Shown in pieces: positions 2,909 through 18,473 of a stretch of 24,144 nucleotides of DNA; position 1 is the first letter of the stretch, and each line of letters starts with the position of its first letter. The stretch covers positions 1 through 24,144 of the IMG/VR virus record IMGVR_UViG_3300030098_000913, one strand, 5' to 3'. A program made the position numbers and the translations under genes. The notes under the pieces were generated by a model. That model saw only the letters and a program-made list of their open reading frames with translations. It did no database searches and had not been told where the DNA came from. This DNA is from a virus.

Positions 2909-3700
2909 GTGAAACTACTAGGAACCAATAACAAACTCGACAAGCAGTCTTCCCGAGGTGAGCCATTCGTTCTCCGGGGTCTGTCCCTCGCTCCCGCTGA
3001 TCTTAGTGGGTATGAAACGTGTCCGATGCGGACTGCTGACTGCACGAAGGCGTGCATCGGGGTCAAGTCAGGGCATAACCGATTCAACCCTGCGAAGGAG
3101 GCGAAGATCAGGAAGACGAAGTTGTTCTTCGAGGATAACGAGACGTTCATGACTCAGTTATTCCGTGAGATCAATAATCTTCGGAAGTACTGTAATCGTC
3201 TCGACAAGCGTCCCGTGGTTCGTCTCAATACTTACTCGGATATTGTTTGGGAGAAGAAGCATCCAGAGATCTTCCTTGAGTTTCCTGATGTGCAGTTCTA
3301 TGACTACACGAAGATCCACCAGAGGCGGAATCTCCCAGACAACTACCATCTGACTCTCTCATACACGGGGTACAACTGGAAGGAGTGCGAGGCGTGGTTG
3401 AGTTCGGGCCGCAATGTCGCCGTCGTATTCAAGGACTGCTGGGACAATCCCCTGCCCGACAAGTGGCGAGGCTTCGATGTCGTAGACGCTGATGAGGATG
3501 ACTGTCGGTGGTTGGAAGATCCCGGCAAGATCTCAGGACTTCGCACAAAGGGGTCCGTCAAGCACGCTGGACCTTTCTTTGCGGATGCTACTGAACTCAC
3601 TGTTGGAGGTCTTCCCGTGATCTCCGGTCTTCGGGAGAAGGTCAGGACACGGTGGGAGAGGAGGGAAGTTGCATGCGAGTCAAGTGGAGCAATAAAGTAG
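2909..3700 (+). CDS. Mycobacteriophage L5 gp88-like domain protein, 263 aa
   Basis: Resembles the Pfam GP88 family seen in many phages. Hallmarks are an N-terminal G.SLAPADLSGYETCPMRTADC..AC.G..SGHNRFN and a central RLNTYSDIVWE, followed by a Y-D-Y-T-K segment. Cys38, Cys45 and Cys49 could bind metal. The family has no firmly assigned biochemical function that I know of. GTG 2909 is chosen because TAGGAG lies 5 nt upstream and the homologous cassette at 2352 uses the same spacing. It is the first large protein of the early region. Confidence 0.78.
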   Translation: MKLLGTNNKLDKQSSRGEPFVLRGLSLAPADLSGYETCPMRTADCTKACIGVKSGHNRFNPAKEAKIRKTKLFFEDNETFMTQLFREINNLRKYCNRLDKRPVVRLNTYSDIVWEKKHPEIFLEFPDVQFYDYTKIHQRRNLPDNYHLTLSYTGYNWKECEAWLSSGRNVAVVFKDCWDNPLPDKWRGFDVVDADEDDCRWLEDPGKISGLRTKGSVKHAGPFFADATELTVGGLPVISGLREKVRTRWERREVACESSGAIK

Positions 3701-4164: not shown

Positions 4165-4202
4165 GGAAGAAATCACGCATTCTTTTCATAAGGAGAAACA
4201 CA

Positions 4203-5099
4203 ATGACTACAGAACTAATGGCTCCAACCGCATTCGACCCGAAGAACTGGGGAGAGCGGGTGGACATCGGAACAATCTCTAGAATCCGGGTTCCCGTTCA
4301 GGGTCCAGATACTTGGCGTCCGCTTCCTCATGATGTGTACGTTCACATGATTGAGAAGGCGTTCACTGAACAGGGGTTCACGATCAGTGAGCCTATTCAC
4401 TACATGGCGAAGGCGAGATCGAACCAGAAGATCAAGGATCTTCCAGAACACGGGCGGTTCCTTTCAACATACGGGATCATGCACCCCCTCCTCCCCGGTC
4501 TTGATGACCTCAGGTGGGAGGCGGCGTTCAAGAACTCGTATGACATGACGATGTCCGCCACCGGGAGTGCTGGGTATCGTGTGAAGGTATGCAGCAACGG
4601 GCTGGACATGGGAGCCGAACAAGGGTTCCGCCGTAAGCATACGAAGGGTATTGATGTGGATCGAGATGGCGTCTTCGAGCATATCCAGAGGCTCGTCACT
4701 GGGTCAATCGGAAACATTATCACTCAGGCAGTATCTGAGGAGAAGTTGATTGATACCTACAAGAACACCGAGTGTTCTAATGCGGATGCTAGGTTCGTCG
4801 CTATTGAGTCGGCCAAGCAGGGAGTCATCGGTGGTGCTGCTATTCTCCGAATCATGGATCACTGGGATTCTCCAGAGCATCCTGAGTTCAAGGACCGAAA
4901 CGTGTGGTCGCTTCAGAATGCGTTTACGTCAAATGACCGTGGTCAGAATCTTATGACTCAGGCGGACAGGTTCGCGAGTCTTCGGTCCATCATCAGCAAC
5001 CGCTTCGGGTTCACGGCTCAGGTCGTCCCCGACAGCATGGATGAGGATTACGTTGATACCTCTTTCGGAGACCCTCCGATTTCTGCTTCTGATTGGTAA
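4203..5099 (+). CDS. DUF932 family phage protein, 298 aa
   Basis: Matches the DUF932 (phage/plasmid-like protein) family: a central RVKVCSNGLDMGAEQGFRRKHTKGID (VCSNGL and RKHTKG are the family hallmarks), then long helices and a C-terminal RSIISNRFGFTAQ. The biochemical role of the family is not settled; such genes are common in phage early or replication regions. I choose ATG 4203 with its AAGGAGAAACACA leader over an upstream ATG at 4098 that lacks an SD and overlaps the previous gene. The C-terminus SFGDPPISASDW is written by a copy of the palindrome. Confidence 0.85.
   Translation: MTTELMAPTAFDPKNWGERVDIGTISRIRVPVQGPDTWRPLPHDVYVHMIEKAFTEQGFTISEPIHYMAKARSNQKIKDLPEHGRFLSTYGIMHPLLPGLDDLRWEAAFKNSYDMTMSATGSAGYRVKVCSNGLDMGAEQGFRRKHTKGIDVDRDGVFEHIQRLVTGSIGNIITQAVSEEKLIDTYKNTECSNADARFVAIESAKQGVIGGAAILRIMDHWDSPEHPEFKDRNVWSLQNAFTSNDRGQNLMTQADRFASLRSIISNRFGFTAQVVPDSMDEDYVDTSFGDPPISASDW
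5065..5079 (+). repeat. Palindromic hairpin inside a gene (FGDPP-coding), copy 7
   Basis: TCGGAG-ACC-CTCCGA with TTTCTGCTTC after it, about 20 nt before the stop of the DUF932 gene. It is read in frame as FGDPPI, as in copy 4. Confidence 0.75.
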
Positions 5100-5136: not shown

Positions 5137-5223
5137 AGGAATGGGATCCCTCCTCCTTCATATCCACTAAGGAATGTGGGAGGCGGTGGTCCCAAAATCA
5201 ATGTTGACACACAGGAGGTAGTC

Positions 5224-6285
5224 ATGGCAATAAGTAAAAGAGGGGATTCTTTCCAAGTTTCCGTTTCATACCGGGGGCGAAGGGTCCGAAAGGCTTTCCG
5301 CGACAGGCAGGAAGCATTGAAATATGAGGCTGAGGTCACAGCCGATATGTTGGCAGGGAGGGAACCAAGGGATTTGACTAAGAAATCTAGACGGAAGGGA
5401 GTGCCGCTTACGGTCGGGGGGATGGCTGATCACGTGTACGAGATGGAGTGGAAGTATCAGAAGTCTGCTGATCACACCTATAACAGGGCGCAGAAGGTCG
5501 TCGATTACTTTGGCGAGAGCACGCCTCTGGAATCCATTACTTCGTACTCATTGGAAGCGTATTCACTTCATCTAAGGAACGTAGAACAGAATGGTCCAGC
5601 GACGATCAACAGGAAGATGGCGATCATCAGTAAGATCCTGTCATACGCTCACAGGCATGAAGTAATCAAGTTCAAGCCCCGAGTAAACAGTCAGCGAGAA
5701 CCTGACGGACGGATGAAGTACTACACGAAGGAGGAGGAGGAAGCGATCACGAACAAGATGGTCGAGTTGAACTCCCCCAAAAACTACTTTTGTTGCCTCT
5801 GTGATTTCTTCCGCATTCTTGTTGATACAGGTATGCGTAGGGGCGAGTGTCTCAGTTTGGAGTGGGAGGATATTGACTTCAAGAAGAATCAGATCACACT
5901 CCCCGACCCGGATCAGATCAAAGCGGCGTTGCCGAGGTCGATACCGATGACTACTAGAGTCAAGAAGATCTTCACTAAGAGGCGGATAGATAAGTGCGAT
6001 CGCCGTAAGCCATTCTTATTCACTTCGCACCAAATAGATAAAGAGGTACAGAAGTTTAAAGACAAGGTATATGGTTCCGATGAACCTTATATGGATATTG
6101 AGGATGTCGCGTTGTTCCACACCTGTAGACATACGTTCATCTCTAGGCTCCTTCAGAAAGGGGTTCCGTTGACGACTGTCCGTGAACTGGCAGGACACCG
6201 AGATATCAGTACGACAATGAGATACGCTCACTTGTCACCAAACAATCATACAGATGCAATATCATTACTGGAGTCGGATGAATAA
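5224..6285 (+). CDS. int: Tyrosine recombinase (phage integrase), 353 aa
   Basis: Site-specific recombinase that would insert the phage at a host tRNA gene. Residues 1-60 look like an arm-type DNA-binding domain, 65-150 the core-binding SAM-like domain, and 165-345 the catalytic domain. Visible catalytic residues are Arg205 (TGMRRGE), His299 and Arg302 (HTCRH), His325 (LAGH) and the nucleophile Tyr334 (MRYAH). ATG 5224 is chosen because AGGAGGT sits 3 nt upstream; an upstream GTG extension is unlikely. Length is normal for P4/lambda-type integrases. The attP-like site lies 100 bp after the stop, and no excisionase is recognisable. Confidence 0.93.
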   Translation: MAISKRGDSFQVSVSYRGRRVRKAFRDRQEALKYEAEVTADMLAGREPRDLTKKSRRKGVPLTVGGMADHVYEMEWKYQKSADHTYNRAQKVVDYFGESTPLESITSYSLEAYSLHLRNVEQNGPATINRKMAIISKILSYAHRHEVIKFKPRVNSQREPDGRMKYYTKEEEEAITNKMVELNSPKNYFCCLCDFFRILVDTGMRRGECLSLEWEDIDFKKNQITLPDPDQIKAALPRSIPMTTRVKKIFTKRRIDKCDRRKPFLFTSHQIDKEVQKFKDKVYGSDEPYMDIEDVALFHTCRHTFISRLLQKGVPLTTVRELAGHRDISTTMRYAHLSPNNHTDAISLLESDE

Positions 6286-9520: not shown

Positions 9521-9977
9521 AATACGATTTCGTAAACATCGGGGCAAGCCTCGGTGGTCGATATTCATCCCGTTGGATCCTGTCCCGGCCTCTAGACCAA
9601 GGTTTACGAGGTCGGGCAGGGTCTACTTCGGGAAGCGGTATACCGCATTCAGAAAGGAGGCGGACGCTCTCTTTAAACTGACTGAATTTCCTATTGAGTT
9701 TCCGCTGAGCGGTCCTCTCGCAGTCAGTGCAAAGTTCATCGTCACGCCTCCAAAGACGACGAAGCGATATTCCCCGAGGGGGGATGTCGATAATTATTTC
9801 AAAACACTGGATGTTCTAAATCAGATCGTCTGGTGGGATGATGACCAGTTGGTTTGGGCCTGCATGAGCAAGTCGTTTGGAGACCGCGCTGGTATTGAAT
9901 TGGAGGTAATGGAAATTGACGGAGTTCCTAAGGCACGAGCCTTGCCCCAGATGTTCATCAAGGGACAATCTGGCTAG
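9504..9977 (+). CDS. RusA-like Holliday junction resolvase, 157 aa
   Basis: Endonuclease for branched DNA, occupying the place of T7 endonuclease I (gene 3). RusA-family signs are PLDPVPASRPRFTRSGRVYF near the N-terminus, then PRGDVDNYFKTLDVLN (Asp94, Asp96, Lys100), WWDDDQ (Asp112-114) and Lys123, matching the acidic catalytic cluster and lysine of E. coli RusA. ATG 9504 overlaps the SSB stop by 17 nt and has GAAGGAG upstream. The 3' end overlaps the primase start by 62 nt. Replacing endonuclease I with RusA keeps the function with an unrelated fold. Confidence 0.88.
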   Translation: MSSISEIRFRKHRGKPRWSIFIPLDPVPASRPRFTRSGRVYFGKRYTAFRKEADALFKLTEFPIEFPLSGPLAVSAKFIVTPPKTTKRYSPRGDVDNYFKTLDVLNQIVWWDDDQLVWACMSKSFGDRAGIELEVMEIDGVPKARALPQMFIKGQSG

Positions 9978-11520
9978 GTACACAGACGGTCACGCATTCT
10001 GTTTTGGATGTAGTTATTACGAACACGGAGATGGCACAACAACCCAGATAAAGGAGACTCACAAAGTGTCTGGATTGATTGATTATGAAATCGTTCCTCT
10101 CAACCGTAGAGGCATTGATATTGAAACCTGTAAGCAGTGGAAGTATGGCGTAGGAGAATATGACGGACAGCCCGTTCAAGTGGCAAACTACTCGAACAGT
10201 ACTGGTCAAGTCATCGCCCAGAAACTTCGCTTCTCTGATAAACGATTCAAGTGGCTCGGAGATACGAGTCAAGTAGAACTATTCGGGATCAACCTCTGGA
10301 GAGACGGCGGCAAGATGGTCGTCGTTACTGAAGGAGAGATTGACAGCCTTAGTATCAGCAAGGCTAACGGAGGTAAGTGGCCTGTCGTCTCTGTCCCTAA
10401 CGGGGCGAAGTCGGCAGCGAAGGTTGTAGCAAAGCATATTGATTGGCTTGAGACTTTCGAGTCCGTCATTCTCTGCTTCGATCAGGATGATGCGGGACGT
10501 ACTGCTGCTGTCGAAGCGGCTCAGATGTTGAGTCCCGGTAAAGTCAAGATCGTCACCAGCCTTCCACAGAAGGATGCGAACGACTGTATCCAGAACGGTC
10601 AGATCAGAGAACTGATGGATGCGATCTGGGGCGCGAAGTCATTCAGACCTGATGGAGTCATCCCCGGTGAAGAGACTTGGGATCTGATTATTGCTGATGA
10701 TGGAAGGCAGTCGATCCCGTACACGTTCTCTGGTCTCAACGATATGTTGTTCGGAATGCGGGGAGGAGAACTCGTCACCCTCACTGCTGGAACGGGTATC
10801 GGTAAATCTAGTATCGCTCGTAAGTGGGCTTATGACCTGAACAAGGAGGGCCACCGGGTCGGCTACATCGCTCTCGAAGAGAGTATTCGGAAGACTGCGG
10901 AGAACATCATGGGATTTGAAATGGAGATCCCTCCGCACCGATGGGAACTTGAGGGCGTCACTGAAGAACAGAAGAGGAAAGCGTTTGAAGCAACTATTGG
11001 TTCAGGCAGGATGGTCCTCTACGATCACTGGGGATCTATTGATCCCGCTAATCTACTTAACAGAATTCGGTACATGGCGAGGGCTATGGACTGCAAGTAC
11101 ATCTTCCTCGATCACTTGTCGATCGTGGTGAGTGCTTTGGAATCTGGCGATGAGCGTCGGATGATTGACAGCACGATGACGAAACTCCGCTCACTGGTCG
11201 AGGAGACTGGAGTACACCTCGTTCTCGTGTCACACCTACGTCGGCCAGATGGGAGATCACATGAAGAAGGTGGGGCTACTAGCCTTTCTCAGTTGCGTGG
11301 TAGCCATGCTATTGCCCAACTCAGCGACGCAGTCATCGGCTGCGAAAGAAACCAACAGGACGACACGGCAGCCAACAGGCTCACGCTCCGAGTCCTCAAA
11401 AACAGATACGCAGGACTCACAGGAGTATGTCAGACTCTTGAATATGATGATCAGACAGGACTCCTCCATGAATGGGTCGCCCCGGAAGTCATCGACATCC
11501 CCGGCGTCAACACCCAATGA
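9916..11520 (+). CDS. Bifunctional DNA primase-helicase, T7 gp4-like, 534 aa
   Basis: Primes lagging strands and unwinds the fork. Domains in order: zinc-binding CPRC...CFGC (Cys10, 13, 29, 32); TOPRIM VVVTEGEID (Glu139) and CFDQDDAGR (189-195); linker; DnaB-type helicase with Walker A AGTGIGKSS (Lys297), LEES (Glu321), Walker B IFLDH (Asp399), VSH (440), LRGSHAIAQLSDAVI and KNRYAG (Arg497, a candidate arginine finger). TTG 9916 is the start because GGAGGT lies 8 nt upstream and only this start keeps the first two zinc cysteines. The C-terminus ends without the acidic tail of T7 gp4. The last 260 nt also encode the start of the lysozyme. Confidence 0.93.
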   Translation: MTEFLRHEPCPRCSSRDNLARYTDGHAFCFGCSYYEHGDGTTTQIKETHKVSGLIDYEIVPLNRRGIDIETCKQWKYGVGEYDGQPVQVANYSNSTGQVIAQKLRFSDKRFKWLGDTSQVELFGINLWRDGGKMVVVTEGEIDSLSISKANGGKWPVVSVPNGAKSAAKVVAKHIDWLETFESVILCFDQDDAGRTAAVEAAQMLSPGKVKIVTSLPQKDANDCIQNGQIRELMDAIWGAKSFRPDGVIPGEETWDLIIADDGRQSIPYTFSGLNDMLFGMRGGELVTLTAGTGIGKSSIARKWAYDLNKEGHRVGYIALEESIRKTAENIMGFEMEIPPHRWELEGVTEEQKRKAFEATIGSGRMVLYDHWGSIDPANLLNRIRYMARAMDCKYIFLDHLSIVVSALESGDERRMIDSTMTKLRSLVEETGVHLVLVSHLRRPDGRSHEEGGATSLSQLRGSHAIAQLSDAVIGCERNQQDDTAANRLTLRVLKNRYAGLTGVCQTLEYDDQTGLLHEWVAPEVIDIPGVNTQ

Positions 11521-11887
11521 GTACAGGGAACTGCTTGACGCGATACGCTCGGTTGAGACGGGAGGACACGATAACCCGTCAGAAGCAATCGGAGATGGCG
11601 GGCGATCGCTTGGGCCTTATCAAATATCAGAAGACTACTGGCTCGACGCTATCGAGTTCAGCGGTATCGGAGGTAAATATGAAGATGTCAAACAAGAAGA
11701 GTACGCAGAAAGAATCATCTGTGCCTACTGGGACCGATGGTGCGGAGACGGATCATGGGAAACTAGGTCACGCACGCATAACGGGGGGCCGTTGGGATCG
11801 TGGAAAACTGCTACAAAAAGATACTGGGAAGCCGTGTCCAATCGTCTTGAAGAACGGAGAATTAGCAACATGGCGTCAGATCGCTGA
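11261..11887 (+). CDS. Secreted lysozyme-like endolysin (i-type/destabilase-like), 208 aa
   Basis: Predicted peptidoglycan hydrolase. MKKVGLLAFLSCVVAMLLPNS is a Sec signal peptide, likely cut after SAA (residues 26-28), then a Ser/Thr-rich linker to about 86. The catalytic domain has IRSVETGG (Glu99, candidate acid), GDGG.SLGPYQI (118-122), YW.DA (126-130) and a late RTHNGGPLG, the order seen in invertebrate-type lysozymes and their phage relatives. GGGAG lies 5 nt before ATG 11261; another ATG at 11249 is in frame. The signal and linker are coded inside the helicase gene (+1 frame), and the domain begins at its stop. The 3' end overlaps the HTH gene. A signal peptide implies export without a holin pore. 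Confidence 0.82.
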   Translation: MKKVGLLAFLSCVVAMLLPNSATQSSAAKETNRTTRQPTGSRSESSKTDTQDSQEYVRLLNMMIRQDSSMNGSPRKSSTSPASTPNEYRELLDAIRSVETGGHDNPSEAIGDGGRSLGPYQISEDYWLDAIEFSGIGGKYEDVKQEEYAERIICAYWDRWCGDGSWETRSRTHNGGPLGSWKTATKRYWEAVSNRLEERRISNMASDR

Positions 11888-12062
11888 CTGGATATCGGAG
11901 GAAGAAGGAACCAAGATACCTCATCAGACAGTCCAGAGAGCATTCGATGCGACTCTGATCCGGCTCAAAAAGTCACTGATGGAGGATCCTTTTATCCTTT
12001 CGTACTTGAGAGACAATAACTTCAATATCCCAGAGGAAGAAGAAAAGGAAGGAGACTCATGA
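11679..12062 (+). CDS. Putative helix-turn-helix DNA-binding protein, 127 aa
   Basis: Residues 60-100 (GELATWRQIADWISEEEGTKIPHQTVQRAFDATLIRLKKSL) read like a helix-turn-helix of the sigma region 4 type (TWRQIADWI..., ...HQTVQRAFDATLIRLKK). The C-terminus is very acidic (PEEEEKEGDS). The N-terminal 70 residues overlap the lysozyme gene in its +1 frame and are polar and low in complexity. GGAGGT (11669-11674) supports ATG 11679 or 11685. The TGA overlaps the DNA polymerase ATG. It could regulate transcription or adapt a host or phage polymerase; the exact role is unknown. Confidence 0.65.
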   Translation: MKMSNKKSTQKESSVPTGTDGAETDHGKLGHARITGGRWDRGKLLQKDTGKPCPIVLKNGELATWRQIADWISEEEGTKIPHQTVQRAFDATLIRLKKSLMEDPFILSYLRDNNFNIPEEEEKEGDS

Positions 12063-13870
12063 ACGTAGTTATATTTGATATTGAAACCAACGCGATCGCT
12101 GACTTCAACACCCTGCTCGGACTGGAGAAAATCCACTGCATAGCAATCGCATCCCCCGGAGGAGACCCTGAGATCCTTCCTACTGAGGAAGCCTTGGAAC
12201 AACTCCGTCTCGCAGACGTTATTGTCGGACATAATATTCAGGACTTTGATATCAGAGCCATCCAACGCCTATACCCTGACTGGAAGCCTGAGGGCTGTGT
12301 CAGAGATACGTTGATCATGTCGAGGATGCTCTGGCCTGATGTCCAGAATGAAGATTGGCAGATCCCAGACTTCCCTCGGAATCTCATAGGTCGTCAATCT
12401 TTGAAGGCTTGGGGTGTTCGACTCGGTATTCATAAGGGCGATTTCGGAGAGTCTCAGAATTGGGACGAGTTCACTCCAGAGATGGCTGAGTACTGTATTC
12501 AAGATGTCCGGGTTACTCAGGCTCTCTGGGAGAGGATTGAGAAGGAGAACCCCCCGGAAAACCCCACAGTGCTGGAACACGAATTCGCGGAAATCGTCTC
12601 ACGACAAGAGAGAAACGGGTTCGCTTTCGACGTAGACGCCGCTAGAAAACTCCACAGTGAACTACTCGGTGAGAAGGACTCACTACTGAAGGAGTTGGAA
12701 TCTCGTTTTCCAGCGCAAGTAATCAAGATGAAGACCCCGAAGTACTGGGAAGATCCAGTGACGAAGGAACGCTACCGGGTGAAGAAGGACGCTCCCAGTA
12801 AAGTACAGAAGATCCTTGTCCGGGGAGAACTTAAAACGAAAGAGATACCGTTCAACCCCGGCAGTCGAGACCAGATCGCTAATGGACTTATTAATAAGTA
12901 CGGTTGGAAGCCTACTGAGTTCACTGGGGAAGGGAAGCCGAAGGTAGACGAGAGCGTTCTGAAGGAGATGGAATACGAAGAGGCTAAACTGCTGATCCGA
13001 TATTTGACTATCGTTAAACGACTCGGACAGATCAGTGACGGCAGGAATGCTTGGATCCGTCTGGAGAAAGAAGGCCGCATCCATGGTCGAGTCAACCCCT
13101 GCGGAGCCGTGACCGCTAGATGTACCCACGCTCGCCCGAATGTGGCACAGGTTCCAAGGGTAGGAGCATTGTGGGGAGAAGAGTGTAGAAGTCTGTTCAC
13201 TGTCCCTGAGGGGTATGTCCTTCTCGGAGTGGACGCTAGTGGATTGGAACTCCGGTGTCTTGCTCACTACACCCACCCCCTCGACAAGGGAAGGTACACG
13301 AACGAGATTCTTGAGGGCGACATTCACACAGCCAATCAAGAAGCGGCGGGCCTTGAAGACAGGAATGATGCGAAGACTTTTATCTACGCCCTACTCTATG
13401 GAGCGGGAGATCTTCGGATCGGTTCCATCGTCGGGGGAGGACAGCGAGAAGGTAAGGCTTTGAAGAATACTTTCTTCTCTCGGATGCCCGCACTCAAGAA
13501 GGTTCAGGAGGGAGTCAAGTACAGACTGAAGACTCAAAACTACCTGACCGGAATCGACAGCAGGAAACTTAGAATTCGATCTGAGCATTCTGCCCTTAAT
13601 ACTCTGCTACAATCAGCAGGGGCAATCGCTATGAAATATGCGACCTGTATTCTTGACAGTAAAATCAGAAGTCATGGATGGACTGATGATGATGTCATGC
13701 AAGTAGCCCACATTCACGACGAGATTCAACTTCAAGTACGCAAGGAGATCGCGGAAGATGTCGGGAAACTTTCAATACAGTCCATACAAGAGTCTGGGAA
13801 AGTCCTCGGATTCCGATGTCCCCTCGACGGGGAATACAAAGTCGGAAGAAACTGGGCGGAGACTCACTGA
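12059..13870 (+). CDS. Family A DNA polymerase with 3'-5' exonuclease, T7 gp5-like, 603 aa
   Basis: Replicative polymerase. Exonuclease motifs: DIET (Asp7, Glu9), GHNIQDFD (57-64), YCIQD (Tyr145, Asp149). Polymerase motifs: A DASGLELRCLAH (Asp392), B RNDAKTFIYALLYGAG (Arg435, Lys439, Tyr443, Tyr447), C HIHDEIQ (Asp554). Tyr443 takes the place of T7 Tyr526 (E. coli Pol I position 762). The protein is about 100 aa shorter than T7 gp5. Much of the difference falls between residues 205 and 265, the thumb region where T7 carries the thioredoxin-binding loop, so that loop is reduced or absent. ATG 12059 is coupled to the preceding TGA. Confidence 0.95.
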   Translation: MNVVIFDIETNAIADFNTLLGLEKIHCIAIASPGGDPEILPTEEALEQLRLADVIVGHNIQDFDIRAIQRLYPDWKPEGCVRDTLIMSRMLWPDVQNEDWQIPDFPRNLIGRQSLKAWGVRLGIHKGDFGESQNWDEFTPEMAEYCIQDVRVTQALWERIEKENPPENPTVLEHEFAEIVSRQERNGFAFDVDAARKLHSELLGEKDSLLKELESRFPAQVIKMKTPKYWEDPVTKERYRVKKDAPSKVQKILVRGELKTKEIPFNPGSRDQIANGLINKYGWKPTEFTGEGKPKVDESVLKEMEYEEAKLLIRYLTIVKRLGQISDGRNAWIRLEKEGRIHGRVNPCGAVTARCTHARPNVAQVPRVGALWGEECRSLFTVPEGYVLLGVDASGLELRCLAHYTHPLDKGRYTNEILEGDIHTANQEAAGLEDRNDAKTFIYALLYGAGDLRIGSIVGGGQREGKALKNTFFSRMPALKKVQEGVKYRLKTQNYLTGIDSRKLRIRSEHSALNTLLQSAGAIAMKYATCILDSKIRSHGWTDDDVMQVAHIHDEIQLQVRKEIAEDVGKLSIQSIQESGKVLGFRCPLDGEYKVGRNWAETH

Positions 13871-14213
13871 CTTATCATGGGCAGCAGGGTTGATGGATGG
13901 TGAAGGTCACTTCAGCGGTAATAAAACGACTATCACGGTCGAGTCAACTTCTAAAACTACTATTGAAGAACTCTACCGGATACTCGGCGGTAAATGCACA
14001 GTACTTAAAAGGAAGACGAATGCTAATCGCCCTGTATTCCGGTGGAGGGTCCATGGGGATTCTGCTCGGAACGTCTGTTCCTTACTCCTTCCTTTTCTTA
14101 TCGAGAAGAAGAAGCAAGCAGAAATCATTTCTATACTCAATAAGTTTCCAATCAGGTCGGCCATGCGGGATTCACTCTTGGAACGGCTCTCCGAACTTAA
14201 AAGGATGGTTTAA
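13758..14213 (+). CDS. LAGLIDADG-type homing endonuclease, 151 aa
   Basis: A freestanding homing endonuclease candidate. The motif LSWAAGLMDGEGHFS (39-53) matches the LAGLIDADG helix with its acidic catalytic residue, and LLLPFLIEKKKQAEI (109-123) fits the typical later helix of small single-motif members that act as dimers. ATG 13758 is the only in-frame start before the motif and has AAGGAG (13742-13747) upstream. Residues 1-37 are coded within the 3' end of the DNA polymerase gene in its +1 frame and are Ser/Thr-rich; the recognisable motif begins just after the polymerase stop. The stop TAA overlaps the next ATG (TAATG). Confidence 0.82.
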   Translation: MSGNFQYSPYKSLGKSSDSDVPSTGNTKSEETGRRLTDLSWAAGLMDGEGHFSGNKTTITVESTSKTTIEELYRILGGKCTVLKRKTNANRPVFRWRVHGDSARNVCSLLLPFLIEKKKQAEIISILNKFPIRSAMRDSLLERLSELKRMV

Positions 14214-18275: not shown

Positions 18276-18473
18276 ATGAACAAGCCCGGATATAAGACTA
18301 CTGAATTTTGGATGAGCATGATCGCCGTAGTTATTGGTGCAGTCATGGCATCTGGAGCATTTGGAATCGAAGGTACTGCGGCTCAGATCGTAGGTATCGT
18401 TGAGTCCGCCCTTGTGGCACTCGGATACACGGGAGCCAGACTGACGCTCAAGCGAGAATCAGGACAAGGGTAA
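18276..18473 (+). CDS. Holin-like membrane protein, 65 aa
   Basis: Two hydrophobic segments, about 11-28 (FWMSMIAVVIGAVMASGAF) and 33-52 (GTAAQIVGIVESALVALGY), followed by a basic tail LTLKRESGQG. The size and layout fit a class II-like holin, which would form inner-membrane lesions at lysis time. MNKPGYKTTEFW.S is a common start of such proteins in marine phages. SD GAGGT precedes ATG 18276. The stop TAA overlaps the next start (TAATG). Its partner endolysin appears to be exported, so its role may be timing or membrane depolarisation. Confidence 0.75.
   Translation: MNKPGYKTTEFWMSMIAVVIGAVMASGAFGIEGTAAQIVGIVESALVALGYTGARLTLKRESGQG

Follow-up and report, generated by a model that had tools for sequence, protein, structure and literature searches.

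The window analysed here, i.e., all 24,144 nt of the viral record IMGVR_UViG_3300030098_000913, carries a primase/helicase gene of the T7 gp4 type whose 3' end is overlapped, in the +1 frame, by an open reading frame (ORF) encoding a lysozyme domain. The features of the locus are listed below.

9916-11520, plus strand: T7 gp4-type primase/helicase gene, host of the overlap (PHROG 239, E 6e-178; Pfam DnaB_C, E 2e-20; Helic-prim_T7_N)
11251-11256, plus strand: SD-like GGGAGA for the lysozyme, written in helicase Gly-Arg codons (anti-SD duplex)
11261-11887, plus strand: overprinted lysozyme gene, an ORF of 208 aa in the +1 frame relative to the helicase
11261-11344, plus strand: putative export signal, comprising MKK, the core VGLLAFLSCVVAMLLP (codons 4-19) and a possible SAA site (codons 26-28) (hydrophobicity against the null, T-rich wobble positions, AF2)
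11345-11515, plus strand: Ser/Thr-rich linker (about 57 residues), arising from the codons of the helicase C-terminus (alignment; pLDDT <50)
11516-11860, plus strand: i-type (destabilase-like) lysozyme domain with the ETGG Glu, the GDGG Asp and an HNGGP motif (PDB profile, Foldseek, relatives' alignment)
11679-12062, plus strand: next ORF, a small HTH-like protein (ATG at 11679 or 11685, or at 11517 in the same frame), overlapping the lysozyme 3' end

The ATG of the lysozyme ORF at 11261 lies inside the HEEGG motif of the helicase, and another in-frame ATG is present at 11249. The ORF covers the last 260 nt of the helicase gene, which contain its first 86 codons, and codon 87 (11519-11521) straddles the helicase stop (11518-11520). 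The encoded protein consists, in order, of MKK, a hydrophobic core, the Ser/Thr-rich linker and the lysozyme domain, which begins at the helicase stop. The GGGAGA sequence forms an anti-SD duplex of -7.3 kcal/mol, compared to -4.5 under a recoding null (p 0.03), and its strength is comparable with that of other gene starts of this phage. By itself, upstream SD strength is weak support, with p<0.1 in only 6 of 23 lysozyme-bearing loci.

The 3' end of the lysozyme gene (11679-11887) is shared with the ORF of the HTH-like protein, which extends to 12062, and because of this second overlap only about 160 nt of the gene remain free. In the loci L014, L061, L068 and L078, the lysozyme 3' end overlaps the start of the DNA polymerase gene instead of the HTH-like ORF.

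Lysozyme domain and its N-terminal segment

The domain of the window product is an i-type (destabilase) lysozyme by sequence, fold and catalytic residues, and falls outside the usual phage lysozyme families; its muramidase activity is inferred. A Pfam search with the window protein gave only a sub-threshold Destabilase match (E 0.004). A profile built from twelve relatives, used in a PDB search, matched leech destabilase 8bbu with E 3e-21, as well as the clam lysozymes 3ab6, 4pj2 and 2dqa. The AlphaFold (AF2) model was confident over the lysozyme domain only (pLDDT about 90), and the best Foldseek matches of the modelled domain were again leech destabilase, in first place, and clam lysozymes (2dqa), with TMt of 0.71-0.77. 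In the alignment of relatives, aligned in turn with the destabilase sequence, E99 of ETGG is invariant and D112 of GDGG is nearly so, the catalytic Asp being absent in L014.

The N-terminus reads MKKVGLLAFLSCVVAMLLPNSATQSSAAKETN, where KK, a hydrophobic run of some 15 residues and, by inspection, SSAA follow one another. The basic n-region and the hydrophobic core (7-15 residues) expected of a Sec signal peptide are thus present in the window sequence. The peak of the 12-residue Kyte-Doolittle mean is 2.80, compared to a mean of 1.03 under a synonymous-recoding null (p = 0.002), and AF2 places a helix over residues 6-16 with low confidence. Residues 13-74, including the linker, have pLDDT <50. 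A small-X-small cleavage site is not clear in all clades, and the SSAA of the window was noted by inspection only. A lipoprotein reading, based on an LLSC box, was considered and rejected, as the Cys stands too early and is missing in L009.

The sequence-only reading of this stretch had placed the lysozyme in the +1 frame at these coordinates, with its domain starting at residue 87, within a codon of the helicase stop, and had described KK, a 15-residue hydrophobic core, SAA and a Ser/Thr-rich linker. All these features held. It had also taken SAA for a cleavage site; the residues are there, but cleavage has not been established and a consensus site is not conserved.

Free-standing homologues of the domain bear on its export. 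A hydrophobic N-terminal segment adjoins the domain in 35 of 36 viral and 63 of 71 bacterial homologues of this kind, which indicates that export is a habit of the family. From sequence alone it is inferred that in the overlapping forms the helicase-derived N-terminus supplies this function. The linker of about 57 residues was found, by alignment, only in the forms overlapping the helicase and is lacking in free-standing homologues; it may be the price of starting the lysozyme at the helicase motif, which is likewise an inference. Chromosomal i-type lysozymes (L138-L208) come mostly from Planctomycetota MAGs, and nearly all of them have an N-terminal hydrophobic segment.

A sub-variant of export is also possible, in which an uncleaved signal-anchor-release (SAR) domain holds the lysozyme in the inner membrane until a pinholin depolarises the membrane and frees it. 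It is favoured by several clades without a clear signal-peptidase site, with cores containing Trp and Gly, by the anchor-like look of the segment in some clades, and by a small holin-like ORF at 18276-18473 (a weak match). Against it stand the SSAA of the window sequence, the 57-residue linker separating the N-terminal segment from the catalytic domain, and the free-standing viral and bacterial homologues, whose signal often ends in a classical AxA type, e.g., MKLITLLLAMPFVAHA-APHKD in L018.

Open frame and codon choice in relatives

Relatives were gathered by scans of IMG/VR, and the loci were sorted by the lysozyme domain alone. The lysozyme-bearing set comprised 23 non-duplicate loci (the window and 22 from IMG/VR) with the domain in the +1 frame of a related helicase; the lysozyme-less set comprised 21 helicase relatives, including those of cultured Pelagibacter and Roseobacter phages. 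The null was generated by synonymous recoding of the helicase tail, in which codons were sampled according to the usage of the gene itself. For the window, this null gave a probability of 0.015 for an open +1 frame and 0.002 for an open frame with the ATG. The +1 frame was open in all 23 long-overlap lysozyme-bearing loci (0.34 expected from synonymous recoding) and in none of the 21 lysozyme-less helicases (0.31 expected), each of which contained 1-8 stops. The ATG at the motif was present in 22/23 lysozyme-bearing loci (9.0 expected) versus 5/21 lysozyme-less ones (6.4 expected). The single lysozyme-bearing locus without it, L082, has ACG at the motif and an ATG four codons upstream, after AAGGAG. 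In L012 and L015, YEDG replaces HEEG, and ATGAAG still occupies that place.

Matches to the lysozyme profile in most lysozyme-less records represented only the helicase's own +1 peptide. Conservation of N-terminal residues was rejected as evidence, since it follows from helicase conservation and is uninformative; lysozyme-less helicases match too, but with stops. Cultured phages with the joint annotation of DNA primase and lysozyme (HTVC041P, HTVC025P and others) were also set aside, the lysozyme there lying before the primase and not over its end.

The arrangement of the frames allows codon choice to be read directly, as each helicase wobble position coincides with the middle position of a lysozyme codon, where T means a hydrophobic residue. 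In lysozyme-bearing loci, the wobble T/(T+C) ratio was 0.76 in the core, 0.40 in the linker and 0.52 upstream (paired Wilcoxon, core versus linker p 2e-7, linker versus upstream p 1e-5); in lysozyme-less loci, the values were 0.61, 0.55 and 0.53, respectively. The codons chosen in the helicase thus favour hydrophobic residues and, further on, polar ones in the +1 frame. Hydrophobicity of the +1 product exceeded the null (p<0.05) in 18 of the 23 lysozyme-bearing loci, and the core was not significantly above it in L009, L010, L012, L014 and L060. A lysozyme-less cluster, L023-L031, also has a +1 hydrophobic stretch above the null, which may be a relic or may be due to chance.

The sequence-only reading could be checked by synonymous-site conservation. 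In the window clade, fourfold-site identity was 0.59 in the overlap versus 0.37 upstream (permutation p 5e-5), and the overlap exceeded every upstream stretch of equal length (maximum 0.579); in the lysozyme-less near relatives, the values were 0.32 and 0.31, so that the overlap is conserved in the window clade and not in these neighbours. The constraint was clear in three of five lysozyme-bearing groups, namely the window clade and two others (p 0.004 each), and no clear constraint was found in the L070 clade (p 0.09) or in L012/L015 (p 0.39). The p-values are optimistic and independence is overstated, because the loci share ancestry. An overprinted gene is expected to keep its frame open beyond chance and to show constraint in both frames, and this is met here, with constraint in those three groups of five.

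A chance origin was considered, in which the +1 reading of conserved helicase sequence as MKK followed by hydrophobic residues would be a coincidence. H-E-E-G-G is encoded by CAY GAR GAR GGN GGN, which in +1 is AYG ARG ARG GNG, i.e., [M/T][K/R][K/R][V/A/E/G]; since no start other than [M/T][K/R][K/R] can result, the motif is pre-shaped as a start with a basic n-region. This necessity speaks for chance, as do the partly hydrophobic +1 peptides of lysozyme-less neighbours. Against it, the open frame, the ATG, the codon choice and the synonymous constraint all track the downstream lysozyme, which all but rules this explanation out.

Programmed +1 frameshifting, with the lysozyme as a C-terminal helicase extension lacking its own start, seems very improbable. 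It is supported by the +1 relation of the frames and by L011, where helicase and lysozyme share one frame after an indel. However, the +1 frame is open for only about 20-80 nt ahead of the ATG, the ATG is conserved in 22/23 loci while L082 has another with a strong SD, and a fusion protein would have no use for hydrophobic shaping immediately downstream of the start. In L011 itself (698-2737), helicase and i-type lysozyme form a single frame of 679 aa, differing from L010 by an indel of about 4 nt, which reflects either a real fused protein or an assembly error.

A second ATG with a strong SD occurs in L069, L073, L075, L060, L016 and L067 near lysozyme codons 76-80, adjoining the domain, and may reflect a dual start giving exported and cytoplasmic forms. 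A late start only (at 11444, 11447 or 11468), which would make the product a cytoplasmic canonical endolysin freed by a holin and leave the upstream frame untranslated, is considered unlikely. In-frame ATGs do exist at those window positions, and the loci just listed, except L060, can be cited in its favour. However, the window alternatives have a weak SD (0.4 and -4.0 kcal/mol) and are not conserved, and a late start leaves unexplained the open frame, the wobble shaping, the upstream constraint and the signal sequences of free-standing homologues.

Relatives keeping the lysozyme and losing the upstream frame would have counted against the sequence-only reading. No such case was met in the 23 loci; in one further relative, L011, the frame is broken by the indel. 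Three more distant phages (L092, L108 and L130) keep the lysozyme and have stops in the long +1 frame, using a second site nearer the helicase end. Their overlap is shorter (in L092, about 4180-4254), the lysozyme starting at the conserved TGRL[HN] codons near the end of the helicase; these starts read ...GGAAGATTAAATG or ...GGGAGGTTACATG, again with a hydrophobic N-terminus. The central claim of that reading, a secretion signal made from conserved helicase sequence, is supported, with export itself remaining an inference.

Proposed mechanism and origin of the overlap

The frame, the start, the codon shaping, the domain identity and the co-occurrence with the lysozyme are shown by sequence. 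Translation, export, cleavage and a lysis role of the lysozyme ORF are inferred, without translation or secretion data. The signal is most likely a genuine export sequence, maintained by selection and overprinted on helicase coding sequence; its translation and cleavage, secretion of the product and lytic function are inferred.

In the proposed mechanism, which is considered likely, the lysozyme ORF would be a real gene with independent initiation. Ribosomes would start at the ATG within CAT-GAA-GAA (His-Glu-Glu of HEEGG), aided by the GGGAGA just upstream. The TSLxQLRGSHAIAQLSD motif would be read in +1 as the hydrophobic core when the helicase codons end in T, and the helicase C-terminal coding region would yield an unstructured linker, mainly needing to stay open. 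The Sec pathway would then carry the lysozyme to the periplasm, either with the signal cleaved off or still anchored in the membrane as a precursor, and there it may degrade peptidoglycan as the phage endolysin, its time being set by the holin-like protein of the late region.

The phages sharing the overlap belong to a marine, T7-like family. When the overlap region was left out of the helicase tree, the long overlap required four changes on it; the fewest-changes reading is one gain and three losses, and the +1 frame is closed by stops in each of the three loss lineages. A single origin could not be established from the lysozyme tree, whose resolution is poor. In the lysozyme-less L033 (L052), positions 3233-3337, the +1 frame can still be read as MKKEEIPAFLSCVAAMLSLSCLMLLLG up to an assembly gap, possibly a relic of a lost lysozyme. 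A host search found no chromosomal homologue (mostly Planctomycetota MAGs) near a related helicase.

A bolder reading joins several steps. An i-type domain would have arrived behind a T7-type helicase gene, and its export signal would have arisen de novo through overprinting of the near-invariant DnaB motif HEEGG...QLRGS...QLSD, whose +1 translation is by its nature [M/T][K/R][K/R] and then a stretch that easily becomes hydrophobic; the signal would have been kept clade-wide and have decayed on lysozyme loss, and some clades would also make a cytoplasmic form from a second start near the domain, giving a dual-start endolysin. As a whole, this scenario is favoured only by a narrow margin.

Known systems and genome context

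Lysis genes nested out of frame are already known, the nearest being Rz1 in Rz. In the λ Rz/Rz1 spanins (PMC5295617), a lysis gene also lies in the +1 frame of another gene with its N-terminal export (lipoprotein) signal overprinted, and flexible linkers of one product coincide with parts of the other that are sensitive to mutation. However, the host gene Rz also encodes a lysis protein and contains the whole of Rz1, whereas in the window a replicative helicase gene accommodates the signal and linker, and the descent of the enzyme domain is known. The φX174 gene E within D and the lysis genes of leviviruses were born out of frame within essential genes. Unlike these small membrane proteins, the present case is an enzyme given an export signal. 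The SAR or Sec-exported endolysins P1 Lyz and phage 21 R (PMC8385771) resemble the role inferred for the window lysozyme, as an N-terminal sequence takes the endolysin across the inner membrane and a holin or pinholin sets the timing, but they belong to another lysozyme family and their signal does not share its coding sequence with an unrelated essential gene. The i-type lysozymes of leech (destabilase, 8bbu) and Tapes japonica (2dqa) share the domain sequence, fold and catalytic residues, but are secreted animal enzymes, unlike a phage protein with a helicase-derived N-terminus. In the open-access literature searched, neither a lysozyme gene overprinted on a helicase gene nor the derivation of an export signal from a helicase motif was found to be described.

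The locus appears to be a clean natural case of a targeting signal obtained without new sequence, by shifting the reading of a conserved enzyme motif by one base. Since the lysozyme was gained and lost among the relatives, built-in controls are available, and selection on overlapping genes can therefore be tested with a well-understood enzyme. Annotation limited to non-overlapping genes or to the common lysozyme families misses the likely endolysin of this phage group.

The T7 gene 3.5 lysozyme (amidase) is likewise a cell-wall enzyme in the DNA-metabolism block of T7-like phages, but it has another fold and precedes gene 4, whereas the window lysozyme lies within the helicase end. The T7 gp3.5 is cytoplasmic and carries no signal. 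The 21 records searched, the window included, contain no Amidase_2 (T7 gp3.5-type) match, and for this reason the overprinted lysozyme may have replaced a gp3.5-type amidase. Elsewhere in the window record, which is a 24 kb fragment, no T7-like amidase, M15 peptidase or GH24 lysozyme was found; the record of a lysozyme-less relative, L032, has a GH24 lysozyme elsewhere. Cultured T7-like relatives infecting Pelagibacter and Roseobacter have a gene annotated as lysozyme between the endonuclease and the primase, and thus a lysozyme among replication genes is not new. The earlier suggestion that such a location implies separate control of lysis timing has not been established.

Some other features of the window were observed. 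The small early ORFs 963-1250, 2097-2318 and 2581-2865 look like paralogues, with a common start MKIYIWQxxWxGNI... and a looser MYLYIW copy. The ORF 13758-14213, overlapping the 3' end of the DNA polymerase gene, contains a LAGLIDADG-like stretch, LSWAAGLMDGEGHF, and maybe encodes a homing endonuclease. A tyrosine-recombinase-like integrase gene is located at 5176-6285, before the RNA polymerase gene, and its presence suggests that the phage may be temperate.
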